51,215 nt of DNA from positions 1 to 51,215 of IMG/VR virus record IMGVR_UViG_3300044712_001916. One strand, written 5' to 3'. Every line of letters begins with the position of its first letter. Position 1 is the first letter of the stretch. The DNA is from a virus. The notes below the pieces were generated by a model, which searched no databases, was not told where the DNA came from, and worked only from the letters and a program-made list of their open reading frames with translations. A program made the translations under genes and the position numbers. Positions 13,598 through 43,129 of this stretch are shown in pieces.

Positions 13598-13906
13598 ATG
13601 ACTACATACGGGAATTTTCAGGGTAGGGTGAAAACAGGAACGGCTATCCCATCTACTGCAGTTGAAGGTGATGAGTATTTTGATACGACATTAAAACAGT
13701 GGCGGGTATATAATGGTTCAGAGTGGCATTACGCTCAATTTACTACAAGTTCAACATCTACTACGACATCTACGAGTACATCTACGAGTACTTCAACTAC
13801 AACGACAACAACTTCTACAACAACGACAACAACTTCTACTTCTACCTCTACTAGTACATCAACGTCAACATCTAGTAGTACATCAACAACAACTACAACG
13901 GGGTAA
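13598..13906 (+). CDS. Virion protein with mucin-like Ser/Thr tail (102 aa)
   Basis: Residues 1-47 form a small domain (MTTYGNFQGRVKTGTAIPST, then GDEYFDTTLKQWRVYNGSEW). From about residue 48 to the end it is almost only Ser and Thr. The ATG at 13598, preceded by AAGGAAA, is preferred over a GTG at 13547 lying in a hairpin loop. It is related to the next two genes by the Y-x-N/D-T...W-x-Y-x-G-S-x-W pattern, likely a beta-hairpin module of a head fibre or decoration. Function is not known. Confidence 0.75.
   Translation: MTTYGNFQGRVKTGTAIPSTAVEGDEYFDTTLKQWRVYNGSEWHYAQFTTSSTSTTTSTSTSTSTSTTTTTTSTTTTTTSTSTSTSTSTSTSSSTSTTTTTG
13740..13903 (+). repeat. Ser/Thr-coding low-complexity tract
   Basis: The tract consists of ACN and TCN codons, with a few AGT, coding a C-terminal Ser/Thr tail. 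Synonymous third bases vary freely, which suggests selection for the amino acids rather than a young DNA repeat. Confidence 0.9.
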
Positions 13907-13911
13907 AAATT

Positions 13912-14109
13912 ATGAGTCAAGATTTATTATCAACTGAAACACATGCGACTGATTACAGAGGTTCATTGTTAACCGGAACAACAAATCCGGCTGATGGAGA
14001 TCAAATTCAAAATATTGAGGCAGGTCAAATGTATTACAATACGACGAGTAATATTTTATATATTTATGATGGAAGTGCTTGGTTTGGAAAATTGACGGTG
14101 GCGATGTAA
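13912..14109 (+). CDS. Small virion protein, paralogue without tail (65 aa)
   Basis: Reads MSQDLLSTETHATDYRGSLL, then GQMYYNTTSNILYIYDGSAW and FGKLTVAM. It shares the YYNT...YxYDGSAW hairpin pattern with its two neighbours but lacks the Ser/Thr tail. It starts 5 nt after the previous stop. Confidence 0.7.
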   Translation: MSQDLLSTETHATDYRGSLLTGTTNPADGDQIQNIEAGQMYYNTTSNILYIYDGSAWFGKLTVAM

Positions 14110-14110
14110 T

Positions 14111-14422
14111 ATGACTAAATTTTCATCTTTTGCAGGTAAAATTAAACAGGCGACTGCTGATCCTATAGATCCGCAGACAGGTGAGGAATACTACAATCAA
14201 AATACTGATAAGTGGCGCAGATATACAGGGAGTGGATGGCGGGAGATTTCGTTTATTAATGTAACGACAACTTCAACGACGACTACAACAAGTACGTCAA
14301 CGTCAACTTCTACTTCAACGACGACGACGACTACAAGTACTTCTACCTCAACGACGACGACAACTACCTCTACTACGAGTACAACAACGAGTACGAGTAC
14401 ATCTACGACTACAACTGCTTAA
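14111..14422 (+). CDS. Virion protein with mucin-like Ser/Thr tail (103 aa)
   Basis: The N-terminal domain (MTKFSSFAGKIKQATADPID, GEEYYNQNTDKWRRYTGSGW, REISF) is paralogous to the genes at 13598 and 13912. Residues 52-103 are almost only Ser/Thr and end in Ala. Probably a capsid surface protein whose tail could carry O-linked sugars or form a flexible brush; both are inference. Confidence 0.75.
   Translation: MTKFSSFAGKIKQATADPIDPQTGEEYYNQNTDKWRRYTGSGWREISFINVTTTSTTTTTSTSTSTSTSTTTTTTSTSTSTTTTTTSTTSTTTSTSTSTTTTA
14263..14420 (+). repeat. Ser/Thr-coding low-complexity tract
   Basis: ACN/TCN codon tract coding the C-terminal tail of the protein at 14111-14422, with mixed synonymous codons. Confidence 0.9.
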
Positions 14423-15550: not shown

Positions 15551-16885
15551 ATGAAAAATAAAGGTAAAAAAATTCTGATCTTTACCCAGTTTAGTAATGC
15601 TGATGAAGCATACTCATTAAATAGAGTAGTTCAGGATCAGATCCAGATGTTTGTCACCAATGGATATAAAGTTGTCGTTACCGTCGCTGAAGGTTTTACG
15701 CCGGTTGGCTGGTACGCTCATTCTGGGGTGGAATTGCGGGGAATGACCACAGTTCCATGCCACAATGAGGTCAAAAAAGATCCCACTTTTGATGATGATG
15801 TAGATGCTTTAACTGAGGATATTAAAGCTATTGTCTCTGATGTTGATTTTGTGATTTCTCATGACTTAATTTATCAACCATCTGCTCTTAAACATAATGT
15901 AGCATGTCGTAAAGTTGCTAAAGATAGGCCAGAATTGAAATGGGCGCATTGGATTCATTCTGCTACTTCTCCTTACACTTTGGGGAGGTTACGAGGTGTA
16001 TTTACTGATGAGTATGCCAGGATTATTAGTGAACCATTTCCTAATTCTTATTATGTTTTTTTCAATCACTATTCAATTCCTCGAATTGCTGAAAATTTTA
16101 AGGTGGATCCAGAGGTGGTTAAGATTGTTCACCATCCCTCAGATGTATATAAGTTACTGCGGATTAAGGATAAGTTGGTAATTAAGTTGGCAGAAAAGAA
16201 GAAGTTACTTGAAGCGGATGCGGTAGCAATTTATCCGGTTAGACTAGATCGGGGTAAACAAGTACAGATGGTAATTAAGACACTGGCGATGCTCAAAGAC
16301 AGAGGATTTAATGTCAGAGTGATTGTAGTTGATTTCCATTCTACTGGTGGGGATAAAGTCACCTATCGGGATGAACTTAAGCAGCTTGGGATTGATTGGG
16401 GGTTAAATGCCCAAGAATTAACTTTTACTTCAGAGTTTGATCCGGAGTGGACTGTACAGATACCGCATGAAAGTACAGCAGAGTTATTTGCATTATCTAA
16501 TGTATTCATTCAACCTTCTGTATCTGAATCATACTCTTTAACGACTCAAGAATTTATAATTATCAGTCGTGGAGTCTTAGTGCTAAATCAGGATTTCCCC
16601 CCATTTAGAGATATTTTCGGGCCGGATGCAATTTACCGGAAGTTTAGTTCAAATATTGATGTCATGAGTGGGTTAGATGGTAATACGACTACTCAATATG
16701 GTCCAAATGATGCTTCTCCTGAAGAGCGAGTCAGTTATGAAAAAGATTATCATCGGGAAACGGCAGGTATGATTGCTAATCAATTACGCCATACGCAAGC
16801 ATATGCTCGGTGGATAAAGATTAAACGAGAACGAAATTTACAATATATATTTACTCATGAGTTAGAGCCTCTTATATATGGATAA
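15551..16885 (+). CDS. GT4-type glycosyltransferase, GT-B fold (444 aa)
   Basis: The N-terminal Rossmann-like half starts KKILIFTQFSNADEAYSLNR. The C-terminal donor-binding half shows YPVRLDRGKQVQMVIKTLAM and SVSESYSLTTQEFIIISRGV, the GT4 region with the E-x7-E-like motif. It probably transfers a hexose from a nucleotide donor to the growing glycan; donor and acceptor unknown. First gene of the cassette, overlapping the next by 8 nt. Confidence 0.85.
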   Translation: MKNKGKKILIFTQFSNADEAYSLNRVVQDQIQMFVTNGYKVVVTVAEGFTPVGWYAHSGVELRGMTTVPCHNEVKKDPTFDDDVDALTEDIKAIVSDVDFVISHDLIYQPSALKHNVACRKVAKDRPELKWAHWIHSATSPYTLGRLRGVFTDEYARIISEPFPNSYYVFFNHYSIPRIAENFKVDPEVVKIVHHPSDVYKLLRIKDKLVIKLAEKKKLLEADAVAIYPVRLDRGKQVQMVIKTLAMLKDRGFNVRVIVVDFHSTGGDKVTYRDELKQLGIDWGLNAQELTFTSEFDPEWTVQIPHESTAELFALSNVFIQPSVSESYSLTTQEFIIISRGVLVLNQDFPPFRDIFGPDAIYRKFSSNIDVMSGLDGNTTTQYGPNDASPEERVSYEKDYHRETAGMIANQLRHTQAYARWIKIKRERNLQYIFTHELEPLIYG

Positions 16886-17648
16886 TGCGGTAGTATATGG
16901 ATGGGGAACAGTAGGTAAAGCAACTGCTAGTGTCTTTAATATTCATTCTTACTTTAGTAAAAAGGAAGCTACTATTACTCTTAAGGAAGCTGCCTATAAA
17001 CGCTATCATTTTATTTGTCTACCTACTCCTACAATTAAGAGTGACTGTTTCAGAGAAGATATTTTTGAATTAATCCGTCAATTAGAAGAATTGCCCCATG
17101 ATCAAAACGTCTATATTTTAAGATCCACGGTTATTCCTGGGACGGCTAAATATATTATGAGTCAATTAAATATTCATTCAGTAATTTCAAATCCAGAGTT
17201 TTTATCTGAAGATACGGCTACTGAGGATAGTATTCATCCCGATATTGTGGTTATTGGTGGAGAACAGAAAAACTACATTGATGATGTGGTTGGAATTTAT
17301 GAGGGACATATTAAGGGAGCTAAAATATTTACAACTGATACAGTAACAGCAGAAATGGCTAAATATGCTATAAACACATTTTATGCAACTAAGGTAATAT
17401 TTGCGAATCAGATATTTGATATAGCACAGCGGATTACAGCTAATTACGAAACAATAAAACAGATCATGTATAGCCGAAAATGGATTGGTAAAAATCATTT
17501 GGATATTTGGCATAAGGGTGGAAGAGGAGCAGGTGGGAAGTGTTTGCGAAAAGATTTAGATGCTTTTGAAAATTATTCTAAGAGTAAGTTGTTAGAAACA
17601 GTAAAACTGTTAAATGAGGATTATTTGAGCCGTTATCCAAAAAAATGA
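16878..17648 (+). CDS. Minimal UDP-glucose/GDP-mannose dehydrogenase (256 aa)
   Basis: NAD-dependent oxidation of a nucleotide sugar to a uronic acid is expected. Motifs: Rossmann loop GWGTVGKAT (residues 8-16), LRSTVIPGTA (81-90), SNPEFLSEDTA (104-114), EMAKYAINTFYATKVIFANQ (159-178, Lys162), and GAGGKCLRKD with catalytic Cys222 and Lys225. Cellular enzymes are about 400-450 aa; here the first domain is shortened and the C-terminal nucleotide-sugar domain is missing. Catalytic residues remain, so it may be a compact active form. Confidence 0.85.
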   Translation: MDNAVVYGWGTVGKATASVFNIHSYFSKKEATITLKEAAYKRYHFICLPTPTIKSDCFREDIFELIRQLEELPHDQNVYILRSTVIPGTAKYIMSQLNIHSVISNPEFLSEDTATEDSIHPDIVVIGGEQKNYIDDVVGIYEGHIKGAKIFTTDTVTAEMAKYAINTFYATKVIFANQIFDIAQRITANYETIKQIMYSRKWIGKNHLDIWHKGGRGAGGKCLRKDLDAFENYSKSKLLETVKLLNEDYLSRYPKK

Positions 17649-18772
17649 TTACAGAAGGATTAACTAGTATTGTTATTGGTATTAGAAATACTGATTATCC
17701 AGTTTGTCATTATACGGGAAACTGTATTGGTTCAGTGAAATATTTTACCCATAAAGAGAAAACTCCCTACGAGATTATAGTAGTTGATAATGGATCAACA
17801 GTTGAATTGGGTGGTTGGAAATGGGACCAAGTAGTAGACAAATATTATAAGCATGATGCCGGTATGAGTTGTGCGTGGGCGTGGAATAAAGGAATTGAGA
17901 TGGCTTCAGGTGAATATATTGCGGTATTGTCTAATGACGTTCAGATATTTGAGTACTGGTTAGAGGATTTGATTGATGCTACTAAATATGTGGATATTGT
18001 TAATGCTTGTCCGATGTACAGTCAACCATGGGGTAGAGCAGTTGAGGCTAAGGAATTAAGAAATAAATGGTTGATGGATGATCCCGATAAATACTTATAT
18101 CCATTTCGTGATTTCTCGCTCTTTTTAGGAAAACGAGAAGTATTTGATAAGGTGGGTACATTTGATGAAAATTATGAGTTTGGGTGGGGAGAAGATATTG
18201 ACTACTGTTACCGTTTACAAGCTCTTGGAATGATGAATAAGGCCAATAAACGAGTAAATACATATCATGTTGGGATGGCAACTGGACAGACCCTTATGAT
18301 GCAAAATGCAGGAGACATCAATGGAGCGATGACTAGGAATCGAGAATACACTCGTAAAAAACACAATTTAGATAAGTTTGGGATTCCACATCCTCAAGAT
18401 GAGGTAGTCGAGCATGAAAAAGATCCTATTATTACTTTGTCTACAAAAATAAAGCGCAGAGGGGATAAAACAATCAGAACGAATGAAACTGGAGATAAGG
18501 TATATCTCGTGACTGGAAAAGTAGCTCAGTGGGTGAAGAATTTGGAAACACTCAATGCACTGGGTTGGACATTAGGCCAAGAAATTCTGGTTAGCCTAGA
18601 TGAATTTAGAGATTTTGAGATGGGGGAGCCATTGGGATTGAATGATGTAGAAAAAGGGGTTGGTGTAGTCCAGTCAGAAGTAGTAGTAGAAGCAACTAAC
18701 TATCCGGAAAAAGTTGTAGTTGAGGACACTTCACATAAAAGTCCGGTTTTACGATATAGAAAATCTGTATGA
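17645..18772 (+). CDS. GT2 glycosyltransferase with extra C-terminal domain (375 aa)
   Basis: The N-terminal GT-A fold shows IIVVDNGST and IAVLSNDVQI (DXD equivalent), then NYEFGWGEDIDYCYRLQALG (acceptor or catalytic ED region). The last about 110 residues form a separate domain with GDKVYLVTGKVAQWVKNLET and LGWTLGQEILVSLDEFRDFE, which resembles small VYLI..GK..W...LGW beta domains of surface proteins. That attachment is unusual; it may bind a partner or glycan. Overlaps both neighbours by 4 nt. Confidence 0.85.
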   Translation: MITEGLTSIVIGIRNTDYPVCHYTGNCIGSVKYFTHKEKTPYEIIVVDNGSTVELGGWKWDQVVDKYYKHDAGMSCAWAWNKGIEMASGEYIAVLSNDVQIFEYWLEDLIDATKYVDIVNACPMYSQPWGRAVEAKELRNKWLMDDPDKYLYPFRDFSLFLGKREVFDKVGTFDENYEFGWGEDIDYCYRLQALGMMNKANKRVNTYHVGMATGQTLMMQNAGDINGAMTRNREYTRKKHNLDKFGIPHPQDEVVEHEKDPIITLSTKIKRRGDKTIRTNETGDKVYLVTGKVAQWVKNLETLNALGWTLGQEILVSLDEFRDFEMGEPLGLNDVEKGVGVVQSEVVVEATNYPEKVVVEDTSHKSPVLRYRKSV

Positions 18773-19566
18773 AGTATTCAATTATTACTCCGGTTCATGT
18801 ATACACTGAGCAGCGAAAAACTCAACTTGATCGAGCGGTTAAAAGTGTACTAAATCAATCAGTTACCGATTACGAGCATATTGTGATTAATGATGGTTCT
18901 ACGATAGAGGTCAAGACTCCTAATTCAGTTAAAGTGGTGAATCAGCCTCATTTGGAACGGATTGTAGCTTATTACAATGGCATGAAGGAAGCTATAGGAG
19001 ATTGGTTTGTATTATTAGATAGCGACGATGAATTGATTAGTTATTACCTGGAAGTGTGTGATGCGATGATGGTTAAATATCCGGATAGTAAACTATTTAA
19101 CTTCGGGTCCATTCACATTACGAAAGAGTATAAAGCTCATCCTCGGGATGCGTTCAAGCCCGCTAAATTTGATGTAGGGCATGAAGTGTTTGGTGGAGGC
19201 ACAATCGTTAACGGGACTTTTATTTTCCACAGAAGTGTTTATGAGGACTTAGGCGGGTATCCTGAGCCGGAGGTGCATAACGTGGACTGTAGTGAAATTA
19301 ACTATCCCGATAATGAAGGTAAACTAACCAGATCGTTAGGCATGAGCAGTCCGTGGGATTTTGCTGCCTATTATCAGGTAAAGTACCCGGAAATCAGGCC
19401 GTATTTTACCCACGATGCAGAGCCGAATAAGGTGATTCGGGAGTTGGGGAATCCCTGGGGAAATGATTATGCGCTCTTTTACCAGTATACCCGCAAGTAT
19501 TATTCTGAGCCGATAGATGCTCATTTATATATCGTTCATCCGGGAAAGTTAGGACACAGCTTATGA
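18769..19566 (+). CDS. GT2 glycosyltransferase (265 aa)
   Basis: Starts YSIITPVHVYTEQRKTQLDR, with IVINDGST and the DXD-type WFVLLDSDDELI, then a long C-terminal acceptor region with GGTIVNGTFIFHRSVYEDLG. Classic family 2 inverting transferase; sugar specificity cannot be read. The gene becomes noticeably GC-richer in its second half. Confidence 0.85.
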   Translation: MKYSIITPVHVYTEQRKTQLDRAVKSVLNQSVTDYEHIVINDGSTIEVKTPNSVKVVNQPHLERIVAYYNGMKEAIGDWFVLLDSDDELISYYLEVCDAMMVKYPDSKLFNFGSIHITKEYKAHPRDAFKPAKFDVGHEVFGGGTIVNGTFIFHRSVYEDLGGYPEPEVHNVDCSEINYPDNEGKLTRSLGMSSPWDFAAYYQVKYPEIRPYFTHDAEPNKVIRELGNPWGNDYALFYQYTRKYYSEPIDAHLYIVHPGKLGHSL

Positions 19567-20303
19567 AGCCAATAGATATTTTTATAACTACGTTTCTTAG
19601 GCAAGCTCATACTGAGCAAACAATCAGGTATCTAAATGAACGGACAAAATATCCTTACCGTTTATTTGTGATAGACAATGGGGGGAATGAGGAGGTGTTA
19701 GATGAAGCGATTAAACAGAATCTGGTTTTTCTGGTGGTACGCCCTTCCTCTAATGTTGGCATTCATGCTGCTTGGAATTTGGCCCTGGCTATGGCTGAAT
19801 CTGATTATTTTATTACTAGCGACAATGATATTCTTGTACCTGAGTTAGAACCAGATTGGTTAGAACAGATGATGACAATTATGCGGACACGGGAGGTTGA
19901 CCGCTTGGCAGCTTTAGCCCTACAGCCACATATCTTTATCGGAACTAATCCAACTGCATATCCTTCAGATGGCATAGTTTTGGATATGCCGATTGTTGGC
20001 GCTGTAATGCGGATGATGAATCGTCAAGCAGTTATTAACGCGGGAGGATGGGAGCATGTGATTAGAACGAGTCGTAATCATGAGGAAAAGACAATTTGTT
20101 CTCGATTGCAAACCTTAGGATATAAAGTTGGGTATACAGCGAAAATGAAGGCATTTCATTTGTTTGCCGGAGAAAATACTGATCCATGGGGCTATCCAGC
20201 CTCAATGAGTCCTGAAGATCACGGGCATCATCCAGTATCTCCTCCCGTTAATGTATTTGGAAATATTGCAGAGTATAACCAAAAAACGTGGGAGCATATA
20301 TGA
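19563..20303 (+). CDS. GT2 glycosyltransferase (246 aa)
   Basis: Reads DIFITTFLRQAHTEQTIRYL, LFVIDNGGNEE, SNVGIHAAWNLALAMAESDY and the DXD-type ITSDNDILVP, then GAVMRMMNRQAVINAGGWEH and EEKTICSRLQTLGYKVGYTA. Family 2; cytoplasmic with no membrane anchor. Its stop overlaps the ATG of the SDR gene (ATGA). Confidence 0.85.
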   Translation: MKPIDIFITTFLRQAHTEQTIRYLNERTKYPYRLFVIDNGGNEEVLDEAIKQNLVFLVVRPSSNVGIHAAWNLALAMAESDYFITSDNDILVPELEPDWLEQMMTIMRTREVDRLAALALQPHIFIGTNPTAYPSDGIVLDMPIVGAVMRMMNRQAVINAGGWEHVIRTSRNHEEKTICSRLQTLGYKVGYTAKMKAFHLFAGENTDPWGYPASMSPEDHGHHPVSPPVNVFGNIAEYNQKTWEHI

Positions 20304-21079
20304 GGATTTTGGTTACGGGTGGATCTGGATTTATAGGTAACTATTTACGACCTATTTTGAAAGAACACGAAGTATTTTCAGTAGATATTGAATCGGGTGT
20401 TGATATTTTTGATAGTTTGTTTGAAAAGTTAGTTAAGAGTCACGATGTGATTATTCATTTGGCAGCATTAACAAATGTCGAAGATTCAAAAATTAATCCT
20501 AAGCCTTACTACATGACTAATGTACTTGGAACGGCAAGAGTGACTTATTTATGTGCGAAGTATGGTAAGAAGTTAATTTATCCATCAACATTACACGTTT
20601 TTGATCCATATTCATCTCCGTATGCTGACAGTAAGTTACAAGCAGAACAAATTGTTAAATGTGTTAATAAATTTATTCCCGTAGTTATTTTACGGCTCTA
20701 CAACGTATTTGGAAAAGGTATGAATAATAATAGTGGATCAATCATTAATCTGTTTCTTACATCTAAAGAGGTAGGAGTGTATGGAGATGGAAGTGTAACT
20801 CGTGATTTTATTCATGTTAAAGATGTTGCCGCAATTATGAAAGATGCCTTGAAATCGAAATGGGATGGTGCGTGTGTTGAGGTCGGAACTGGTAAGGGAA
20901 CAAGTATTAAGGAGCTAGCTATCTTATTTTCTTATTATCGGCAAGTTCCATTAGTATATTTTAAGAATAAAGAACAACTACGGTGGCCAATTGCCAATAC
21001 TAAATTATTAAAAAAATTATACAAAGAAAAATTAAAGACTAATATCCATAAAGATATTGAGGAACTATGCCGAAATTAA
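20300..21079 (+). CDS. NAD-dependent sugar epimerase/dehydratase, extended SDR (259 aa)
   Basis: GGSGFIGNYL at residues 7-16 binds NAD, IIHLAALTNV follows, and the catalytic pair is Tyr108 and Lys112 in SPYADSKLQAE, with Ser/Thr at 96-97. RDFIHVKDVA is the usual downstream motif. It probably epimerises or dehydrates a nucleotide sugar feeding the cassette. The ATG at 20300 is preferred because it gives the SDR start and the 4-nt overlap. Confidence 0.85.
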   Translation: MRILVTGGSGFIGNYLRPILKEHEVFSVDIESGVDIFDSLFEKLVKSHDVIIHLAALTNVEDSKINPKPYYMTNVLGTARVTYLCAKYGKKLIYPSTLHVFDPYSSPYADSKLQAEQIVKCVNKFIPVVILRLYNVFGKGMNNNSGSIINLFLTSKEVGVYGDGSVTRDFIHVKDVAAIMKDALKSKWDGACVEVGTGKGTSIKELAILFSYYRQVPLVYFKNKEQLRWPIANTKLLKKLYKEKLKTNIHKDIEELCRN

Positions 21080-21747
21080 CGTCAGTTATTGTTACTGCAT
21101 ATCCACAAACCATTTATCAGGCACAGATGACAATGGCTTCTATTGCCAGTGTGACCAAATATACAGAACTTAGTGAGTATGAACTTATCTTGATGTCTGA
21201 TAGTGAGAAATTTCCAATTAGGGATGATTATCAAACATTAAAAATAGATCGGTACGAAAAGACTTACGGATGGGGATACACCAAGTCAATGAATGAGGGA
21301 GCAAAATTAGTAACAGGAGAATATCTAGTTTTCTTACAAAATGATGTTTTTGTAAGAGAAGGATGGTTGCCTGATCTTCGCTGGTACTTGGAAAATAATA
21401 AGGGAGAATGTGTAATTCCGGATCAAATGCCTCGGACAAGAGAGTTTGTAAAAAAGTCATACCGAATGAGCTACGAAGAAGCGATGAAGTTTGGATCACG
21501 GGATGCAGGACTATTGATGATCACTACAGAAGCTTTTAAGCGAGTGGGTGGTTGGGATGAACGATTATCCCTACTGGCTGAAAAGGATTTTTATCGACGA
21601 ATGGCAGAAGTAGGTATTAGACAAGTAGATACTTGTAAAACAATGATTACTCACATCATGGCAGCTACTAACTTTTATCGGTACCATACTAACTATCAAG
21701 AATATGACGATATGATGAAAAAAGATGCGGAGATACTTAATAAATGA
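21067..21747 (+). CDS. GT2 glycosyltransferase (226 aa)
   Basis: Compact GT-A fold: TSVIVTAYPQTIYQAQMTMA, YGWGYTKSMNEGAKLVTGEY and the DXD-type VFLQNDVFVREGWL, then LLMITTEAFKRVGGWDERLS and EKDFYRRMAEVG with the ED-type catalytic pair. Small for the family but complete in motifs. Overlaps the SDR gene by 13 nt. Confidence 0.85.
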   Translation: MPKLTSVIVTAYPQTIYQAQMTMASIASVTKYTELSEYELILMSDSEKFPIRDDYQTLKIDRYEKTYGWGYTKSMNEGAKLVTGEYLVFLQNDVFVREGWLPDLRWYLENNKGECVIPDQMPRTREFVKKSYRMSYEEAMKFGSRDAGLLMITTEAFKRVGGWDERLSLLAEKDFYRRMAEVGIRQVDTCKTMITHIMAATNFYRYHTNYQEYDDMMKKDAEILNK

Positions 21748-22925
21748 AAATGTTAGTTGATATGGGGGAAGTGGCCATTTCACCACTTCAAAAAAAATTA
21801 GTAAGTAAATGTCTCAGTAATAATCGTTTGTCATATGGTCCGATGACTAAAGAGTTTGAATCTAAGTGGGCAAAGATGCATCATGTGAAATATGCTCTAT
21901 TTTGTAATTCAGGGACTTCAGCTTTGCAAGTAGCAATTCATGCATTAAAGGAAAAATACAAATGGGATGATGGATGTCAGGTAATTATTCCGGCAACTAC
22001 TTTTGTAGCTACGATGAATGTGGTCCTTCATAACAATTTACGGCCTGTTTTTGTTGATGTGGAAGGAGACTATTTTAATCTTGATTATAAGTTAATTGAA
22101 GATAAGTTAACTGTAAAAACAAAGGCAATTATAGTTGTTCATTTACTTGGTCAACCAGCTAATATGACGCAAATTATGAGAATTGCTCGAAGATTTGATT
22201 TGAAGGTAATTGAAGATTCATGTGAAACAGTTGGAGCAACATTTAGAGGTAAATCAGTTGGATCATGGGGAGATGTGAGTTGTTTTTCCACATATGCTTC
22301 ACATTTAGTAGTTACGGGGGTTGGTGGATTTGCATGTACTAATGATACTGACTTAGCAGTTAGAATTAAGGGATTATACAATCACGGACGGGACGGAGTT
22401 TACCATTCAATTGATGATGATGATAAAAACTCAATTGAAATGATGAAAAGTCGTTTTAATTTTGTTCATTCTGGATATAGTTATCGGACAACTGAATTGG
22501 AAAGCGCATTAGGTTTAGGTCATTTAGCAAGATTTAGTAAGGAATTAAAAAAACGTCAAGATAATGCTGCATATTTAATTAGTAAGTTAAAACCACTTCA
22601 AGGAAAAAATCTTATTAAATTACCGCTAGCTCATACTGATGCGACTCATTCGTATATGCTCTTTGCACTTACCTGTTTACGAGAAGGTGATAGAGATAAG
22701 TTAATTCTATTTTTAGAAAATAACGGCATTATGACTCGGTATCTGATGCCACTTATAAATCAACCGATCGTACAGAGTATATTTGGAAATATATACGGAG
22801 ATTTTCCAGTTTCTACTTATCTTATTGCTAACTCTTTTCTAATTGGAATTCATCCTGGATTAACTAAAGAAGATTTAGATTATATAGTTAAAAAATTCTA
22901 TACATTTTATGATAAAAGAAAATGA
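21744..22925 (+). CDS. DegT/DnrJ/EryC1-fold PLP enzyme with Lys to His change (393 aa)
   Basis: Sugar aminotransferase fold: FCNSGTSALQVAIHALKE (PLP phosphate site), IIPATTFVATMNVVLHNNLR, VIEDSCETVGATFRGKSVG with the PLP-holding Asp158, and GYSYRTTELESALGL. The internal aldimine Lys is replaced: FSTYASHLVVTGVGG has His187 where aminotransferases have K in K-N-L-T-T-G-E-G-G. ColD- and E1-type sugar 3-dehydrases carry His there, so a 3-deoxygenating dehydrase is more likely than an aminotransferase. The partner reductant is not visible. Confidence 0.85.
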   Translation: MKMLVDMGEVAISPLQKKLVSKCLSNNRLSYGPMTKEFESKWAKMHHVKYALFCNSGTSALQVAIHALKEKYKWDDGCQVIIPATTFVATMNVVLHNNLRPVFVDVEGDYFNLDYKLIEDKLTVKTKAIIVVHLLGQPANMTQIMRIARRFDLKVIEDSCETVGATFRGKSVGSWGDVSCFSTYASHLVVTGVGGFACTNDTDLAVRIKGLYNHGRDGVYHSIDDDDKNSIEMMKSRFNFVHSGYSYRTTELESALGLGHLARFSKELKKRQDNAAYLISKLKPLQGKNLIKLPLAHTDATHSYMLFALTCLREGDRDKLILFLENNGIMTRYLMPLINQPIVQSIFGNIYGDFPVSTYLIANSFLIGIHPGLTKEDLDYIVKKFYTFYDKRK

Positions 22926-23709
22926 AGTCACTATCATCATCCCCCATTTAGGTAGTAGCCCTGAATCTGAGTATGCCTTTGACCAGTGTTTGCTTTCATT
23001 GAGTGACTTTTCAGGACGGGTCATCGGGGTTCATAACGGGCTTAACGAGTGTAAACATAAAGGCTTATGTTCAATGCACCTGAACGATCAGGGCCAGTGT
23101 AAGGCGGTTAATGCCGCGGCAGCGATAGTTACAACACCGTGGATCATGGTTTCTAATGACGACATGATCTATCCTCCTAGTTGGTTTAACCGACTGGTTA
23201 TCTGGTTTCAACCGGATATGCACTGTATCTCTCCCCAATTAGTTGAGCCTAAAGCCGGGGCTCCGACTTTCAGAGTGAAGTCTTTTGGGGGAGCGGGTGG
23301 TGATTTTGACAAGCAGGGATTTTTTAACTTTTCTGAAGATAATGATGGAGATGGATTTCGGACAGGATTTAATTTGCCGTTCCTGATTGAAAAAGACCTG
23401 TGGGATGTAGTTGGCGGGTATGATGTCAATTACGATCCGTGGGGATCAAACTCAGATAGTGACTTACTGTACAAAATAAAGTTAGCCGGAGTCCAGCCAT
23501 ACCAGAATACTAATTGTTTGGTTTACCATTTCTCCCAAACGTCAGGCACATTTCAGGCTGAAAACCAGATGTACTGGCATAAGAATTTTAAATACTTTGA
23601 AGATAAATGGGGATTTCCAAGAACTGATAACCGGATTTGGGAAGCTGATTTTTTAATTCCTAAAAAAGAACGTATTTTCAGACCACAATGGGAGGGAAGT
23701 TATGAGTGA
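22909..23709 (+). CDS. GT2 glycosyltransferase (266 aa)
   Basis: Reads VTIIIPHLGSSPESEYAFDQ, GVHNGLNECKH, NAAAAIVTTPWIMVSNDDMI with the DXD-type NDD, then GYDVNYDPWGSNSDSDLLYK. Base composition is higher in GC than the previous two genes, which suggests a separate origin. Overlaps the PLP enzyme gene by 17 nt. Confidence 0.85.
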   Translation: MIKENEVTIIIPHLGSSPESEYAFDQCLLSLSDFSGRVIGVHNGLNECKHKGLCSMHLNDQGQCKAVNAAAAIVTTPWIMVSNDDMIYPPSWFNRLVIWFQPDMHCISPQLVEPKAGAPTFRVKSFGGAGGDFDKQGFFNFSEDNDGDGFRTGFNLPFLIEKDLWDVVGGYDVNYDPWGSNSDSDLLYKIKLAGVQPYQNTNCLVYHFSQTSGTFQAENQMYWHKNFKYFEDKWGFPRTDNRIWEADFLIPKKERIFRPQWEGSYE

Positions 23710-24223
23710 TTTACAAGCGTTAGACCTGAAAGCAAATCCGGGAGCTTTTAGTACGCTGGATATGGAAGTGATAATTCCGGATCTGGAAAAGTTACAGCCG
23801 GGAGATATTTACTTGGAAGTGGGTGTGGATCGGGGCAAGTCATTATCAGTTGCCCGGATGGTATGTAAACTTGAAGTTGATGTAATAGGTGTAGATATTA
23901 AAGAAGATCCTAAAGTTCCTGGAACATTATTTTATCAGGGAGATAGTGTAAAAGTAGCAAATGATTATAAAGAACATAATAGTCCTAAAATTTCAGTTTT
24001 GTTCATAGACGGGGACCACACGTATCAGGGATGTAAACGGGATATTGATGCCTGGTATCCGCATGTTAAAAAAGACGGCGTGCTATTTTTCCATGATTGT
24101 GATGAATCAAGTCCGGGAGTCATGTGGGCGGTAGCGGAGTTTGTCTATACTCATACAGGTTCGTTTAACTTATTTAAGTACAATAATAAAAATACCAGTA
24201 TGGCACGAGTGAGGCTCGGATGA
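23702..24223 (+). CDS. Class I methyltransferase, Methyltransf_24-like (173 aa)
   Basis: SAM-binding YLEVGVDRGKSLSVAR, acidic VIGVDIKED, then VLFIDGDHTYQGCKRDIDAW and GVLFFHDCDE, the typical FkbM/Methyltransf_24-like arrangement. It probably methylates a sugar or amino group. Its extreme C-terminus (MARVRLG) is made of sequence that resembles the start of the glycosyltransferase gene beyond the HNH insertion, so the original end may have been changed by that insertion. Confidence 0.8.
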   Translation: MSDLQALDLKANPGAFSTLDMEVIIPDLEKLQPGDIYLEVGVDRGKSLSVARMVCKLEVDVIGVDIKEDPKVPGTLFYQGDSVKVANDYKEHNSPKISVLFIDGDHTYQGCKRDIDAWYPHVKKDGVLFFHDCDESSPGVMWAVAEFVYTHTGSFNLFKYNNKNTSMARVRLG

Positions 24224-24561
24224 AAAGAAAATATAAGTGTAGAGGTTGGTATATAGACACGTATGGTTATAAGAGGATTAAGAAATGGGATCATCCATTT
24301 CATGATAAACAAGGATATGTTTGTGAGCATCGTTTGGTTATGGAAAAGTATTTAGATAAATATTTACCATTAAAAGATCAAATACATCATATAAATGGAA
24401 TTAAAACTGATAATAGAATTGAGAATTTAGAAATTTTATCTGCTAGTGACCATAGAACTAAGCATAATTTAGAAAATAATCCGTTTAAAGGAAAAAAACA
24501 TACAGAAGAATATAAACGAAAAATGAGTTATTTTATGAAGAAAAGGTGGGCTTCACTGTGA
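24220..24561 (+). CDS. HNH endonuclease with NUMOD3-like tail (113 aa)
   Basis: HNH_3-type core HRLVMEKYLDKYLPLKDQIH then HINGIKTDNRIENLEIL, followed by NPFKGKKHTEEYKRKMS, a NUMOD3-like DNA-binding motif. AT-rich against its neighbours. The ATG overlaps the methyltransferase stop, and its stop overlaps the GTG of the next gene (GTGA), so it is wedged exactly at a start codon. GTGAGGCTCGGA (24209-24220) before it resembles GTGAAAGTTGGA at the real start (24558-24569). Confidence 0.9.
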   Translation: MKRKYKCRGWYIDTYGYKRIKKWDHPFHDKQGYVCEHRLVMEKYLDKYLPLKDQIHHINGIKTDNRIENLEILSASDHRTKHNLENNPFKGKKHTEEYKRKMSYFMKKRWASL

Positions 24562-25553
24562 AAGTTGGATTTATAGGAAATTATCAAAGTGGCTATGTGG
24601 GAGAAATAAGTGACGAATCTCACCTTGCGCGTGAAATTGAAACACTGGGGAATAAAGTATACCGTATTCCTAGAGATGAATGGCGAGAATATGTGATTGA
24701 GGGGTTTCCCCAAAATAAATATAAAAATGTTCCAGAAATAGATAGATTAGACATTGTTATTTTTGCTAAGTGGGCTGGGTTTTATGATGGATCGTTTATT
24801 GTTAAAGCTAGAGAAAAATATAAATGTCCATGTTTCTTGTGGGTATGGGACTGGATGCAGGGAGAGCCGTGGCACATGGAGGCAGTCAAGGCAGCGGATT
24901 TGTATATCGCCAATGATGTGTTCAGCGGTAAGTATGACATTTTAAAATACGAAACCCCGAACTATGTAAACAATCTCTACTACTTCCCGTTTGATGTGGC
25001 TGATAATAACTTCCCCCGATTTCATCTTAAAGATAAAACAATTGAGGTGGCCTTCTTCGGCTCCTGGATAAATCAGGGTCATCGGCAGGAGTGGTTGAAA
25101 CAGATTAACCATGCAATTCCGGTGACGGTCTTTTCCTGGAACTATCAAGAATGGCCGAAAGAATTTAGTGCATATCCTCCCGTCTATGGTCATGATTTTT
25201 CCCGTAAAGTAGCTGAAAGTAAGATCTGTCTTGGATTTTCAGTAGATCCGTATACGTGGGGCTACTGGTCTAACCGGACCGGAAAGACTCTCTTAGCAGG
25301 TGGATTCCTACTTTATGAATATGCTCCGGGAATGGAGTTGTTCCTGCGGGATGGGGTTGAGTATTTCAGTTCCGTTGACGAGGCAGTTTTCAAGATCGGT
25401 TTTTACACGGTAAATCATCTTGCTAGAAATGGGATTGCCAACCGGGGGTATGACCTTGCTCAGGAAAGATTTTCGTCAGCGGCCCGGGTAAAAGACTTAC
25501 TGATTTTAGTAGATAGATTTATTCACAAAGGAGAGGCTGTATGGAAGATGTAA
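24558..25553 (+). CDS. CgeB-like GT-B glycosyltransferase (331 aa)
   Basis: Starts VKVGFIGNYQSGYVGEISDE (initiator GTG), then WVWDWMQGEPWHMEAVKAAD, IEVAFFGSWINQGHRQEWL and the donor-site stretch NRTGKTLLAGGFLLYEYAPG then MELFLRDGVEYFSSVDEAV, typical of the CgeB/Glyco_trans_1_2 group. The GTG at 24558 with AGGTGG upstream is chosen. The HNH element directly before it targets this start. Confidence 0.85.
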   Translation: MKVGFIGNYQSGYVGEISDESHLAREIETLGNKVYRIPRDEWREYVIEGFPQNKYKNVPEIDRLDIVIFAKWAGFYDGSFIVKAREKYKCPCFLWVWDWMQGEPWHMEAVKAADLYIANDVFSGKYDILKYETPNYVNNLYYFPFDVADNNFPRFHLKDKTIEVAFFGSWINQGHRQEWLKQINHAIPVTVFSWNYQEWPKEFSAYPPVYGHDFSRKVAESKICLGFSVDPYTWGYWSNRTGKTLLAGGFLLYEYAPGMELFLRDGVEYFSSVDEAVFKIGFYTVNHLARNGIANRGYDLAQERFSSAARVKDLLILVDRFIHKGEAVWKM

Positions 25554-26191
25554 AACAAGAGGATCGGTGGTTTAGTACCCCGGTTATAGATACCTGGTGC
25601 AGAATGGGCGGTAACGGGACGATTAACGTATCTCAACTGATGCCCTTGATTAAATTCACCAGAGATGGGGAAAGTTTTTTGGATGTAGGATGCGGTAGCG
25701 GAACTACGATTGATGCAATTGATGCAATTAAGCGGGATGTTGTGTACAAGGGCGTTGATTTTATTGAGAGGAATGTTAATTGGCTAAAAGAAAAATATCC
25801 TCACCGGGAATTTGCGGTTGAAGATGCCCGGCACTTAACTGAACCAGATCAGAGTTGGGATGTGGTGTGGAGCAGGCATGTAGTTGATCACCTTGATGAC
25901 TTTGAACAGCCACTAGAAGAACACTGCCGGGTAGCTAAAAAGCGGGTCATTTGTGTTCTGTGGTATGCACTACATGATGGAGATGAGCATATCATTAAAC
26001 CTATTTTTGATAATGGCAGAACATATGCGGATGAATATCTTAACCAATTCAGCCGGAAAAAAGTAAAAGCATTTTTAGATAAAAAAAGTAAAGAGGGTTG
26101 GCAATTACTTGAATTTTTAGAAGAAGTGAGTTGGCAGGGTGATAAAAAAGGTAAGGGAGGCGACATAATTATTGTGTTGGGAAGAGTATGA
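25541..26191 (+). CDS. SAM-dependent methyltransferase, Methyltransf_11-like (216 aa)
   Basis: FLDVGCGSGTTIDAIDAI binds SAM, followed by YKGVDFIERNVNWLKEKYPH and FAVEDARHL, then DVVWSRHVVDHLDDFEQPLE. Likely acts on a sugar of the cassette product. AAAGGAGAGG lies upstream; overlaps the previous gene by 13 nt and the next by 4 nt. Confidence 0.85.
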   Translation: MEDVKQEDRWFSTPVIDTWCRMGGNGTINVSQLMPLIKFTRDGESFLDVGCGSGTTIDAIDAIKRDVVYKGVDFIERNVNWLKEKYPHREFAVEDARHLTEPDQSWDVVWSRHVVDHLDDFEQPLEEHCRVAKKRVICVLWYALHDGDEHIIKPIFDNGRTYADEYLNQFSRKKVKAFLDKKSKEGWQLLEFLEEVSWQGDKKGKGGDIIIVLGRV

Positions 26192-27195
26192 AAAAAATAC
26201 TTTGTATTCCGCCACTACCAAGTTGGTATGTGGAAGCTCATGTTGAGTATTTGATCCGGGAAATGGCGGATGAATTTTTCATGGAGATAGCTTCAAATCC
26301 CTATCCTCCGTACGAAACATATAAACAGCGGATTCCGCCTGAAAGCCCGTTTATGCGAAACCCTGATGAATATGATTTAATTTGGCCGCTGTGGGCGGGA
26401 CACTGGGGAATTCCCATAGACCAGTACAAATACAAGACAGCGGTAGTGATTTATCAGGTCGGGGAAGGTCATTCTGCTGGCTGTAAGGTGACTGGAGCAG
26501 CTACTCCACTGGTGGAGAATGAATTTACTGCCCACAATACCCCATTTCATTCCCTGCGTTTTGGAATTGATACCAATCTGTTTTACCCTGTTCCCGCTTT
26601 GCGGAATAACTACTGTTGTGACAAATTACATGTCGGGTATATCGGAAATCATGCCAATGTCCGGCACATGCTTACGACAGTAATTTCACCGCTTCGTGAA
26701 CTGGAGGGGATACATTTAATGTTGTTTCCCCACTCCTGGCAAAATCACGGGGGAAATTGGAACGATTGGGATGGAGAACACTTGATGCCGTATGTAGTTT
26801 CCGGAGATAAACGCTGGACTGGTGTACCGAACATCTACAACCGCATGGATGTACTTTTAAGGATTGATCAGGATCCGGCTTATTCATTTCCGACACTTGA
26901 GGCAGCAGCCTGTGGGGTAGCTGTAATTGCCACAAACAGCGGTATAGATCATCTGATTACTGAAGCTGGTGGCGGGATACTTATTCCCGGGGATCGGTCA
27001 ACTCACATGAGTACTCCGGAAGTTACTGCTAAAAATGTCCGTGAAGCAGTAGAACTACTGGTAAACGATCGTTTACTTTGTCAACGAATAGGAGCTAAAG
27101 GCAGGGCAGAAATTGAACGTAACTGGACCTGGGATAAGTTTTTTCCAGCATGGAGAAAATTTTTCAGAGAAGGAACTAAAGATGCAACTAAGTAA
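26188..27195 (+). CDS. GT4-type glycosyltransferase (335 aa)
   Basis: Starts KKILCIPPLPSWYVEAHVEY, with LHVGYIGNHANVRHMLTTVI opening the donor domain, and DPAYSFPTLEAAACGVAVIA, which contains the E-x7-like loop of GT4 enzymes, then GGGILIPGDRS. A conventional retaining GT-B transferase. GC-richer than the first half of the cassette. Confidence 0.85.
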   Translation: MKKILCIPPLPSWYVEAHVEYLIREMADEFFMEIASNPYPPYETYKQRIPPESPFMRNPDEYDLIWPLWAGHWGIPIDQYKYKTAVVIYQVGEGHSAGCKVTGAATPLVENEFTAHNTPFHSLRFGIDTNLFYPVPALRNNYCCDKLHVGYIGNHANVRHMLTTVISPLRELEGIHLMLFPHSWQNHGGNWNDWDGEHLMPYVVSGDKRWTGVPNIYNRMDVLLRIDQDPAYSFPTLEAAACGVAVIATNSGIDHLITEAGGGILIPGDRSTHMSTPEVTAKNVREAVELLVNDRLLCQRIGAKGRAEIERNWTWDKFFPAWRKFFREGTKDATK

Positions 27196-27802
27196 TTGTT
27201 TATTAACTGGAGGCAGCGGTTCACTAGGTCAGGAGTTACAGAAGTATCTTACCTGTGAGGCTCCCTCTCATTCTGAGTTAGACATCACTAAACGAATTGT
27301 GAAGCGGAAAAAATACAAGCTGATTATTCATGCAGCCGGATATACCAATGTAGATAAAGCCGAACGGGAATCTGAACGGGTATTTGACAGTAACTTGGGG
27401 GGAACGCTTAATCTTTTATATGAGTATGGAAATGTTCCTTTTGTTTATATCTCCAGCGAGTATGCTAAAAATCCACTTAACATGTACTCAGCTTCAAAGT
27501 ATGCCGGAGAGTTAGCAGTTAAATGTTTAGCCGAAAAATATCTGATTATCAGAACCTTATTTAAAAAGAAATGGCCGTATCCGGTGGCCTGGACTGACCA
27601 ATGGACACAGGGAGATTATCTGGAGATTATTGCCCCGCTGATTATTAAGGAGATTGAAAACTGGAATGGTATTTCCCGGACAGTCTACGTAGGAACAGGC
27701 CGGAAAACTATGTTTGAGTTGGCACAGAGAACTAAACCCGATGTAAAACCAATTAGTATTAAAAGTTATTGGGGAGTAAAACGTCCAACAGACTATTTAT
27801 GA
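27182..27802 (+). CDS. RmlD-like SDR sugar reductase (206 aa)
   Basis: GGSGSLGQELQKYL (residues 10-23) binds NAD(P), IIHAAGYTNVDKAERE is the RmlD signature-like stretch, and MYSASKYAGE gives Tyr102 and Lys106. It is shorter than RmlD (about 280-300 aa), so the sugar-binding part is reduced. Probably a 4-keto-sugar reductase working after the dehydrase step (inference). AAGGA site before the ATG. Confidence 0.8.
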   Translation: MQLSNCLLTGGSGSLGQELQKYLTCEAPSHSELDITKRIVKRKKYKLIIHAAGYTNVDKAERESERVFDSNLGGTLNLLYEYGNVPFVYISSEYAKNPLNMYSASKYAGELAVKCLAEKYLIIRTLFKKKWPYPVAWTDQWTQGDYLEIIAPLIIKEIENWNGISRTVYVGTGRKTMFELAQRTKPDVKPISIKSYWGVKRPTDYL

Positions 27803-28479
27803 CTATCACCGCAATCATTCTAGCCCATTTTAAAGAACGGGAAAGAAACCTCAAACGGATTGTAGATGACCTACTGGGAGCCACTACAGTGCCACAGGAG
27901 GTGATCATTTTCATTGATAACCCTGCTATCACCTTTACTGATGAACGGGTCACTATTATTAGATCTTCTCGTAGTTTTCTACCGATCATCAGGTTTGCAA
28001 TAGGATCAATTTGTGATACTGACTACTGTTTCTTCATTGATGATGACTTAACGGTTGGAAAAAAGACACTAGAGAATTTCAGTAATTATGCTAATGATGA
28101 TGATCCAATTTTAGGATTAGAGGGAAGTATCCTGGGTAAAACAGAAACCCCATATTCAAATGATACTCCGATAAGAAGTCCGAAGGAGATTACAGAGGTA
28201 GATATCATTATCAGAGTCTATTTTGTTCCAACTGATGTTCTTACATACCCTTTGGAAATGCAAGCAAATTATGCATATTTACCTAAGAAATCACTTGATG
28301 ATGTGTACCTTTGTATATCTAACAAAATTGAGAATGTAAGCAAAATATATGTAATACCAACTAATGATGAAAGTGGCTTAATTGAACTTCCTGATGGTGG
28401 AGTAGGTCAATCTTTAACTGAAGATCATTATAAAAACAGGAATATCGTCTGTAGAAAGTTGATGGATGTATATGTATAA
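27799..28479 (+). CDS. GT2/GT64-like glycosyltransferase (226 aa)
   Basis: Starts TITAIILAHFKERERNLKRI, then VPQEVIIFIDNPAITF and the triple-Asp CFFIDDDLTVG as the metal site. The VPQEVIIFID pattern recalls the exostosin-like GT64 or GT2 GT-A fold. The second half is divergent. Overlaps the RmlD-like gene by 4 nt (ATGA). Confidence 0.7.
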   Translation: MTITAIILAHFKERERNLKRIVDDLLGATTVPQEVIIFIDNPAITFTDERVTIIRSSRSFLPIIRFAIGSICDTDYCFFIDDDLTVGKKTLENFSNYANDDDPILGLEGSILGKTETPYSNDTPIRSPKEITEVDIIIRVYFVPTDVLTYPLEMQANYAYLPKKSLDDVYLCISNKIENVSKIYVIPTNDESGLIELPDGGVGQSLTEDHYKNRNIVCRKLMDVYV

Positions 28480-29116
28480 CGTACTTGCACTTGATTTTGA
28501 TGACATGACCGATAAGTATGACCGGAACGGGATGAATTTCCTGCTCTACTGGAAGGCTAAATACCCGAAGTTAAAGGTCAACATGTTTGCCATTCCCGGC
28601 TGGATGAGTCCGGAATTTATCAAACTGCTTGAGCCCTATAAAGACTGGTTGCAGCTGTGTGTACATGGCTGGCAGCATCAGGATAATTTTGAGGTACTGA
28701 GGTGGGATGAATACCGGACAAATCTATATTTAGGAAGGGCGGAAGAGTTAGGTTTTCAGCGGGTATTTCGGGCTCCCGGCTGGCAGATTACCTATCCGCA
28801 ACCGTATAACGAAACTCCGGATTACACAAAGCCAGTTAATTCTAATCCTCATCTGATCTACAACATCTTAAAAGAACGGGGTTACATTGTAGCTGACCAG
28901 CACTACAACAAGGATAAACGTCCGGAAGGTATCAAAGTCTACTGTAGCTGTAACCCGCTATTTGTTCACGGTCATGTAGAGGATATTAACATCTCCGATC
29001 CCAAAGGCAGAAACGGGATGCGGCAGATGGAGGAAGAATGGGAATTTCCCTGGAACGGGGAAAGTGAGTTTAAGTTCATCTCCGAGTTGACAGAAAGCGA
29101 GTTAACCTGTCTATGA
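28466..29116 (+). CDS. Polysaccharide deacetylase-like protein (216 aa)
   Basis: NodB-like order of motifs: LALDFDDMTD (motif 1, Asp pair), QLCVHGWQHQD (motif 2, two His in H-x3-H), RVFRAPGWQITYP (motif 3) and NPLFVHGHVEDI near the end (His of motif 5). There is no signal peptide, so it would act in the cytoplasm, perhaps de-N-acetylating a nucleotide sugar or the glycan. Assignment is by motif order. Confidence 0.75.
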   Translation: MYMYNVLALDFDDMTDKYDRNGMNFLLYWKAKYPKLKVNMFAIPGWMSPEFIKLLEPYKDWLQLCVHGWQHQDNFEVLRWDEYRTNLYLGRAEELGFQRVFRAPGWQITYPQPYNETPDYTKPVNSNPHLIYNILKERGYIVADQHYNKDKRPEGIKVYCSCNPLFVHGHVEDINISDPKGRNGMRQMEEEWEFPWNGESEFKFISELTESELTCL

Positions 29117-30045
29117 TTGAAACGGTATTTACCTTTAACCCGGTCCGCAGTGACTTTATCCAGAAAGCCTTAGATACCCTGTATAAGTACACTGACATGA
29201 CTAATAACCGGGTCGTTGTGGTTGACCAGACTGAGGACGGCCTCAAACTCTCTAAAGAGCAGGTTCACCTGATTCTCAAACCACACCGCAACTTAGGCTT
29301 CTCAAAGGCGCATAATGAAGCAATTATTCACGGGATCAGGTGGGGAGCTACGTACGTAGTCTGCTGTAATGACGATGTTGAGTGGATCAACAACCGCTGG
29401 TGGGATGGGGTGTTGGAAACATTCGCCACAGATAGTAAAATACTGGCAGTTAACCCGGAGTGTCCCCGGGTCCCGATGTGGGGCTACGGACGGCCACACG
29501 GGGAATACACCGAATATTTAATGTATAAGCCGGAGTTTACGGAAGCTGACTATGACTATTTACTGGCGGGAGATTTTGCGGAGGTAAAGGAACGCTACAC
29601 CGATTTACCCGCTTCATTTCCCTTACATAAAGTTGGACTTTGTGACGCAATTGCGATGTGGATGCCCGTATTTAAAACTGAGTGTTTTGAAAAGATCGGT
29701 TTGTTTGATGAGAAGTTCTATCCGGGCGGAGGCGAAGATTATGACTTCGATGCTCGGATTTACCGGGAATACTACCGGGCAGTCAGCAGTACCCGGTCCT
29801 GGGTCTGGCACCACTGGGGTCAGAGTAAGGATGAAACTGAGGCTGCTAAAAATAAGGGGGCAGTCGTTGATCCGAAACTGACGTGGATGAATACTGACTC
29901 GTTATGGCCTCCGGAGCGGAACTTGAGTTGGAACGGGACGGCGATGGTGCCGACTAAATTTGATCCCTGGGGTAAAGTTACACTACCGGATGGGACTAAG
30001 CAGCCAATGTACCGGATACCGGAAATTCATATTGTTGATATTTAA
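29113..30045 (+). CDS. GT2 glycosyltransferase, last cassette gene (310 aa)
   Basis: Starts ETVFTFNPVRSDFIQKALDT, with NLGFSKAHNEAIIHGIRWGA, the DXD-type VVCCNDDVEWIN, and GLFDEKFYPGGGEDYDFDAR (catalytic ED). The C-terminal about 70 residues are Trp/Pro-rich. Ends just before the boundary inverted repeat. Confidence 0.85.
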   Translation: MIETVFTFNPVRSDFIQKALDTLYKYTDMTNNRVVVVDQTEDGLKLSKEQVHLILKPHRNLGFSKAHNEAIIHGIRWGATYVVCCNDDVEWINNRWWDGVLETFATDSKILAVNPECPRVPMWGYGRPHGEYTEYLMYKPEFTEADYDYLLAGDFAEVKERYTDLPASFPLHKVGLCDAIAMWMPVFKTECFEKIGLFDEKFYPGGGEDYDFDARIYREYYRAVSSTRSWVWHHWGQSKDETEAAKNKGAVVDPKLTWMNTDSLWPPERNLSWNGTAMVPTKFDPWGKVTLPDGTKQPMYRIPEIHIVDI

Positions 30046-32340: not shown

Positions 32341-32341
32341 T

Positions 32342-34660: not shown

Positions 34661-34661
34661 T

Positions 34662-36980: not shown

Positions 36981-36982
36981 AA

Positions 36983-37011
36983 TTGCTATTTAAGTAGGTT
37001 TGGATTATTAT
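36983..37011 (+). promoter_or_regulatory. Leaderless promoter of adaptor gene
   Basis: TTGCTA (36983-36988), 17-bp spacer, TATTAT (37006-37011), then 7 nt to the ATG at 37019, so the message would begin at the start codon. Confidence 0.65.
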
Positions 37012-37018
37012 TTTATAT

Positions 37019-38314: not shown

Positions 38315-38320
38315 TATGCT

Positions 38321-38599
38321 ATGGCTAATGAAGGACAACAGGTACATAAAGTTGAGGATTTTTCAGGTGGCACGCAAACCACGACTACCCGCTTCCTACG
38401 GAAAGGAAATGAGCTGGAAGGCTCACTCAACGCCCGGTTTAAAAATATTGGCGGTGTAGGAATCAGGGACGGCTACTCCCAATCCGGCAGCAATCTAACC
38501 AGTACCACCACTACGTCCAGTTCTACCTCAACTACCACGACCACGACATCCACTTCCACGTCAAGTTCCACGTCAACATCAACATCAACAACAGCATAA
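38321..38599 (+). CDS. N-terminal fragment of propeller protein with Ser/Thr tail (92 aa)
   Basis: Residues 1-60 (VHKVEDFSGGTQTTTTRFLR, GSLNARFKNIGGVGIRDGYS) look like the usual N-terminus of phage tail beta-propeller proteins (F-GG...NAR...G.GIR.GY). Instead of continuing, it changes to a 30-residue Ser/Thr tail and stops. The rest of the propeller follows 3 nt later with its own ATG. So one ancestral gene seems to be divided in two, with a mucin-like tail at the break. Confidence 0.7.
   Translation: MANEGQQVHKVEDFSGGTQTTTTRFLRKGNELEGSLNARFKNIGGVGIRDGYSQSGSNLTSTTTTSSSTSTTTTTTSTSTSSSTSTSTSTTA
38497..38596 (+). repeat. Ser/Thr-coding tail tract
   Basis: About 33 codons at the 3' end of the gene at 38321-38599, directly before the stop and the next ATG. 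Confidence 0.9.
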
Positions 38600-43117: not shown

Positions 43118-43129
43118 TTATATGGCAAA
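43116..43129 (+). repeat. Relic copy of downstream gene start
   Basis: AATTATATGGCAAA here matches AATTACTTTGGCAAA at 43545-43559, around the TTG start of the next structural gene, with one indel and one or two changes. It forms the first codons of the HNH-type gene, which thus took over the original start. Confidence 0.55.

Follow-up and report, generated by a model that had tools for sequence, protein, structure and literature searches.

What does a phage gain from an enzyme that has the fold of a sugar aminotransferase but carries a histidine in place of the lysine that would form the internal aldimine with PLP? A change from lysine to histidine is the main difference between sugar aminotransferases and 3-dehydratases (review, PMC8987622), so the first question is whether this protein, which we call P0001, removes a hydroxyl from a sugar instead of adding an amino group. 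The second question is which sugar the phage would make. P0001 is encoded in IMG/VR record IMGVR_UViG_3300044712_001916, and the stretch of DNA that we analysed ("the window") is this whole record, with 51,215 bases.

A glycan cassette in a phage genome

Because the window encodes a terminase, a portal, a major head protein and an endolysin, it represents a genuine phage. Its terminase region has no nucleotide match among deposited phages. The gene for P0001 lies in a glycan cassette (Table 1) that is syntenic in five relatives (L093, L105, L107, L115, and L131). The UDP-glucose/GDP-mannose dehydrogenase (UGD) homologue, the glycosyltransferases, and the histidine enzyme are always present. 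The UGD-like protein of the window retains a GGKCLRKD motif, and its C-terminal domain is gone. Also, our reading of the sequence suggests that putative HNH-type homing endonucleases are encoded between the structural and glycan genes (24220-24561, 10192-10635, 40551-40991, and 43122-43562).

Table 1. Positions of the features of the window that are discussed in the text
Feature	Position	Strand	Basis
Terminase large subunit	5276..6766	+	PHROG 38, 309 bits
Two tracts of only Ser and Thr (53 and 51 residues), immediately upstream of the cassette	13742..14416	+	sequence
Phage glycan cassette: glycosyltransferases, UGD, DegT (His), methyltransferases, deacetylase-like ORF	15551..30045	+	synteny
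Short UGD homologue, 256 aa	16878..17648	+	constant in syntenic cassette
SDR1, GalE/epimerase-like	20300..21079	+	STLHVF where the 4,6-dehydratase STDE is expected
P0001, His-type DegT-fold enzyme, 393 aa, ATG start	21744..22925	+	Pfam DegT, E1/ColD homology, AF2 model
Motif FSTYASHLVVTGVGG, P0001 residues 181-195	22284..22328	+	alignments to E1 and ColD
His187 codon, replacing the PLP lysine	22302-22304	+	His in 54/54 family members
Loop GRDGVYHSIDDDD...SRF, P0001 residues 215-238, aligned with the [2Fe-2S] cysteine loop of E1	22386..22457	+	alignments
SDR2, RmlD-like (4-ketoreductase family)	27176..27802	+	without the S-T-D-E 4,6-dehydratase motif
Ten more pure Ser/Thr tracts (18-235 residues), downstream of the cassette	31315..38593	+	sequence

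A histidine at the site of the PLP lysine

The reading frame of P0001 is unbroken, and residues 16-385 match Pfam DegT_DnrJ_EryC1 (PF01041) with 297.2 bits, as compared to a gathering score of 19.8. An AlphaFold2 model has a mean pLDDT of 94.9 and a pTM of 0.92. Its closest solved structures are GDP-perosamine synthase (3bn1; Z 51.8, 32% identity) and E1 (Z 51.1), which are effectively tied, with ColD at 48.7. Unlike P0001, GDP-perosamine synthase is a lysine enzyme and an aminotransferase; its substrate is GDP-4-keto-6-deoxymannose, which P0001 would most likely use as well. The common fold does not settle whether P0001 transaminates or dehydrates. What decides the matter is the histidine.

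A preliminary description of this DNA had proposed that His187 is equivalent to the PLP lysine, and the comparisons bear this out. In a phmmer alignment to E1 (PDB 3bcx), His187 falls on E1 His220 within a gap-free stretch. The lysine enzyme 7b0m aligns with GNK at this position, and QdtB has its lysine within this loop, offset by one gap. ColD (2gms) has S187-H188-H189 at the site, as read via the alignment of a cyanophage homologue, and several phage homologues have AHH there; the deposited ColD mutants (H188N, H188K, and S187N/H188K) settle that His188 is the equivalent residue. Judging by sequence and fold alignments, P0001 therefore has the active-site histidine of the 3-dehydratases (ColD, E1, and SpnQ) and not the lysine of the sugar aminotransferases.

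The same description had asked whether a lysine elsewhere could form the aldimine. Among 54 aligned family members, the only invariant lysine is K69, in the helix that follows the SGT phosphate loop, and we found no conserved lysine in this alignment that would fit the role. In contrast, all 54 members have histidine at position 187 and none has lysine. Also invariant are S56, G57, T58, D158, E161, S182, and Y184. By counting positions on the alignment, E161 corresponds to E1 D194, the acidic residue after a ligand cysteine, and Y184 corresponds to E1 Y217; these are reportedly residues that were switched when E1 was engineered into an aminotransferase. We also considered Ser186-His187 as a functional copy of ColD Ser187-His188, but we dropped this idea, as 49 of the 54 relatives have alanine at the position of S186 and ColD Ser187 is not kept in the family.

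Losing the canonical lysine could also mean that P0001 is a catalytically dead homologue that serves in regulation or binding. We find this highly improbable, as such diverse members all keep the histidine and the other residues of the cofactor site, and as the gene is fused to or adjoins the gene for a sugar-nucleotide enzyme elsewhere in the family.

A third clade of histidine enzymes

To find homologues, we used P0001 aligned to two phage relatives as the query, which was necessary because a single-sequence scan of viral contigs gave only a weak match. The scans returned phage proteins with identities of up to 61%. Proteins with about 40-52% identity are found in Elusimicrobia, Omnitrophota, KSB1, Gemmatimonadota, planctomycetes, many Patescibacteria, Woesearchaeota, and other small archaea. 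The relatives have the motifs CFSTYxAHxxxTGVGG and NHGRDxIYLSIDDD in common.

In a tree of 113 sequences, one branch (support 94) separates 86 histidine rows from 27 lysine rows, so the switch between lysine and histidine happens just once, and none of the 86 has lysine at the position of His187. Given this single change and the invariance in all 54 family members, the histidine of P0001 is not a sequencing accident. These results also bear on the idea that P0001 is a sugar 4-aminotransferase that dispenses with the usual lysine or employs a different one. In favor of this idea, P0001 has the fold of a sugar aminotransferase, GDP-perosamine synthase is among the nearest structures, and SpnQ transaminates if its reductase is absent (review, PMC8987622). 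But ColD and E1 showed no transaminase activity (same review), the histidine side of the tree has no lysine at the site, and the one conserved lysine belongs to the helix that comes next to the phosphate loop on its C-terminal side. We consider an aminotransferase very unlikely.

Histidine-type DegT genes are common in phages. A pattern scan found relatives in at least 592 IMG/VR contigs; of these, we kept 80, most of which have the E1-type cysteine loop, while some are ColD-like and lack it. Deposited cyanophages carry such genes as well, and one is annotated as CDP-4-dehydro-6-deoxy-D-glucose 3-dehydratase. In the Synechococcus phages S-H68 and ACG-2014f, they adjoin nucleotide-sugar and glycosyltransferase genes; the S-H68 homologue has the Fe-S loop and the ACG-2014f homologue is ColD-like, whereas P0001 is in a third clade. 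So, a phage-borne 3-dehydratase is not new in itself. The gene rfbH is listed among the auxiliary genes of marine viruses (PMC10653327), and our literature search found no study on a phage 3-dehydratase from the clade of P0001.

Missing cysteines of the iron-sulphur loop

Of the proteins in the PDB, E1/RfbH (CDP-4-keto-6-deoxyglucose 3-dehydrase) is the best sequence match to P0001, at 175 bits, and sequence alone places this enzyme of a CDP sugar above ColD. The match to the RfbH equivalog (NF011936) is just 235 bits, as compared to a cut-off of 423. E1 has a four-cysteine [2Fe-2S] motif, which we take to be C193, C251, C253, and C262. P0001 retains only C160, the equivalent of C193. Its residues 215-238 include no cysteine at all: where E1 has its three loop cysteines, P0001 has a conserved Y-x-x-I-D-D-D loop, with D224-D226 kept in 42-46 of the 54 relatives. 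The P0001 clade comprises 50 rows of the tree, of which 48 lack the three loop cysteines; the exceptions are two early-branching members from Firmicutes (L230 and L235), which keep a C-x-C-x-x-C...C loop. Furthermore, neither the window record nor seven relatives (these records may be incomplete) encode a Fer2 or NAD_binding_1 domain of the kind that an E3-like reductase would have. Without the loop cysteines or an E3-like reductase domain, P0001 is not of the E1 type. That it might nonetheless be an E1-like 3-dehydratase that requires a [2Fe-2S] cluster and an NADH-dependent E3 reductase has in its favor the ranking of E1 in the sequence comparison and the intact loops of L230 and L235, but with the cysteines gone from P0001 and nearly all of its clade and no reductase domain in the phage, we scarcely entertain it.

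P0001 has more in common with ColD, the GDP-4-keto-6-deoxy-D-mannose 3-dehydratase of E. coli O55. Both have histidine for lysine, both lack the [2Fe-2S] cysteines, and they have a common fold. On the other hand, they are only about 26% identical over the structural alignment, the histidine is followed by TGVGG in P0001 and by TMEGG in ColD, and they belong to separate clades. A joint clade of the Fe-S-free rows from the P0001 family and the ColD-like rows was rejected (AU test, p 0.002, with trees from a quick search under a single model), suggesting that the P0001 clade lost, or lacks, the cluster independently of ColD. P0001 thus represents a third, large and uncharacterised clade of histidine enzymes, neither ColD nor E1, from phages and from poorly known bacteria and archaea.

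Genomic linkage to GDP-mannose 4,6-dehydratase

A gene for GDP-mannose 4,6-dehydratase (GMD) is present in 32 of the 63 bacterial or archaeal loci of the family (15 directly upstream at -1, 5 directly downstream at +1, and 1 fused), in 20 of the 51 phage loci, and in none of the 9 loci of more distant relatives, which is a small control set. The fusion (L208) is a single frame of 733 amino acids, in which a GMD domain (TIGR01472, 530.7 bits; cut-off 415) is followed by the DegT domain. We also searched 36 genomes of family members whose fetched locus had no clear GMD: 22 had a hit over the cut-off, 7 had hits of 337-411 bits, and 2 had a split GMD. Among genomes with lysine enzymes, another small control, 1 of 7 had GMD over the cut-off.

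As an aside, in a Woesearchaeota genome (L253 132-2351 (-), genome G018 C29), about 360 residues interrupt GMD within its NHE-SPLRG stretch. The insert begins with Cys and ends VIAN|S, and from its sequence it looks like an intein. GMD is split in the same pattern in a second archaeal genome (G017 C38).

In bacteria and archaea, family genes often have an SDR gene next to them. These SDRs are most similar to GDP-L-fucose synthase (258-450 bits, under the equivalog cut-off of 500), and judging by sequence, they might be ColC-like epimerase-reductases. In a phage of the sister lineage (L109), the best match of the gene after DegT is the GDP-6-deoxy-4-hexulose reductase 2pk3 (202 bits). Genes of glycosyltransferase family 11 are found in 15 phage loci, and family 10 genes in some. 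For comparison, the colitosyltransferase of E. coli O55, the alpha-1,2 enzyme WbgN, can use GDP-fucose as well (PMC12723683). Some family members thus have the ColD-like setting of the colitose route (GMD and a GDP-fucose-synthase-like gene), and overall the gene context resembles that route: GMD, 3-dehydratase, epimerase-reductase, transferase. The linkage to GMD, the fusion, and the GDP-fucose-synthase-like neighbors argue for a colitose-type pathway.

We noticed two other features of family loci. First, five family members (L187, L200, L206, L213, and L218) are extended at the C-terminus by about 220 residues, which by eye resemble a glycosyltransferase of the dolichyl-phosphate-mannose-synthase type; Pfam had no match for the extension of L187. 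Second, split genes of the transketolase/E1_dh type are found near the histidine enzyme in L094, L099, L104, and L206, and also in Solidesulfovibrio (L010) and Methylovirgula (L011). These might hint at dideoxy sugars with a two-carbon branch.

What does P0001 do in the phage?

Because His187 is equivalent to the lysine, no other conserved lysine could form the aldimine, and the protein falls in a clade with ColD and E1, apart from the lysine aminotransferases, 3-dehydration is the best reading of P0001. We base the proposed chemistry on the histidine, the lack of cluster cysteines, and the failure to find an E3 reductase domain: P0001 is probably a PMP-dependent, Fe-S-free nucleotide-sugar 3-dehydratase, ColD-like in its action but from a separate clade, with GDP-4-keto-6-deoxy-D-mannose as its most likely substrate. 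The preliminary description had suggested a 3-dehydrase of the ColD or E1 type, with two nearby SDRs that would allow the phage to make a rare dideoxy sugar. The 3-dehydratase part is well supported, but the enzyme is not of the E1 type and it is not a ColD by descent. Similarly, both SDRs exist, but they do not complete a pathway. Neither has the STDE motif, and neither is constant in the cassette: SDR1 is found in 3 of the 5 syntenic relatives (L105, L107, and L131) and we found no homologue of SDR2 in the cassettes of any of the five.

The source of the substrate is less clear for the window than for the family. We did not find GMD in the window record or in those of L093, L105, L107, L115, and L131, although these records may be incomplete. 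The substrate would therefore come from the host or be attached to another nucleotide. The window phage probably depends on a 4-keto-6-deoxy sugar that is made by its host, and GDP-4-keto-6-deoxymannose supplied by the host is the simplest reading. Alternatively, the enzyme of the window lineage could perform the same 3-dehydration on a 4-keto sugar that is linked to CDP, dTDP or UDP. L131 and L109 contain ORFs that we judged by eye to be RmlA-like (sugar-1-phosphate nucleotidylyltransferases), which, along with the constant UGD, leaves room for dTDP or UDP sugars, and the similarity to E1 would fit a CDP sugar. But GMD accompanies the family across bacteria, archaea, and other phages; the sister lineage has an RMD-like gene next to DegT; the 4,6-dehydratase motif is missing from SDR1 and SDR2; and GDP sugar may come from the host. 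So we think that a different nucleotide is unlikely, if far from absurd.

The fold, the histidine, the missing cluster cysteines, the clade, and the linkage of the family to GMD are observations, whereas the reaction, the substrate in the window phage, the final sugar, and the acceptor are predictions. We modeled the mechanism on ColD, which hydrolyses the intermediate and regenerates PMP with glutamate (review, PMC8987622), and this type of scheme was also shown for a C3-dehydratase from Campylobacter (PMC10440746). By analogy, P0001 would hold PLP without an internal aldimine, and glutamate would convert PLP to PMP. A nucleotide-linked 4-keto-6-deoxy sugar, most likely GDP-4-keto-6-deoxy-D-mannose, would react through its C4 ketone with PMP to give a ketimine. 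His187 would abstract the C4' proton and O3 would leave. Hydrolysis would then yield the 4-keto-3,6-dideoxy sugar and PLP, so that an E3 reductase would be unnecessary. To complete a colitose-like sugar, a 4-ketoreductase (from the host, or a phage SDR) would be required. Glycosyltransferases of the phage would transfer this sugar to a phage-directed glycan, which may be carried by the Ser/Thr tracts of virion proteins.

These tracts flank the cassette on both sides. In total, the window has 12 pure Ser/Thr tracts with 668 residues. Of loci L093-L248, only L093, L105, L107, L115, and L124 have such tracts, and all five belong to the lineage of the window or its sister. Based on this correlation alone, the tracts may be acceptors of mucin-like O-glycans. 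Putting these ideas together, we tentatively suggest, as a conjecture that we would not bet on, that a third lineage of 3-dehydratases, Fe-S-free independently of ColD and with a conserved IDDD loop, extends across candidate-phylum bacteria, DPANN archaea, and phages, and that in the window lineage it supplies a 3,6-dideoxy sugar for a phage pathway that coats mucin-like Ser/Thr tracts of the virion.

Implications

3,6-Dideoxy sugars are known from the surfaces of a few well-studied bacteria. If the members of the GMD-linked clade are 3-dehydratases, then these sugars are likely to be synthesized in candidate phyla from groundwater, in archaea, and in phages as well. The P0001 clade would also offer a natural comparison of the same fold with and without an iron-sulphur cluster. 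Finally, if it is true that the virus makes a rare sugar and places it on proteins with Ser/Thr tracts, then the glycosylation of phage virions would become testable.
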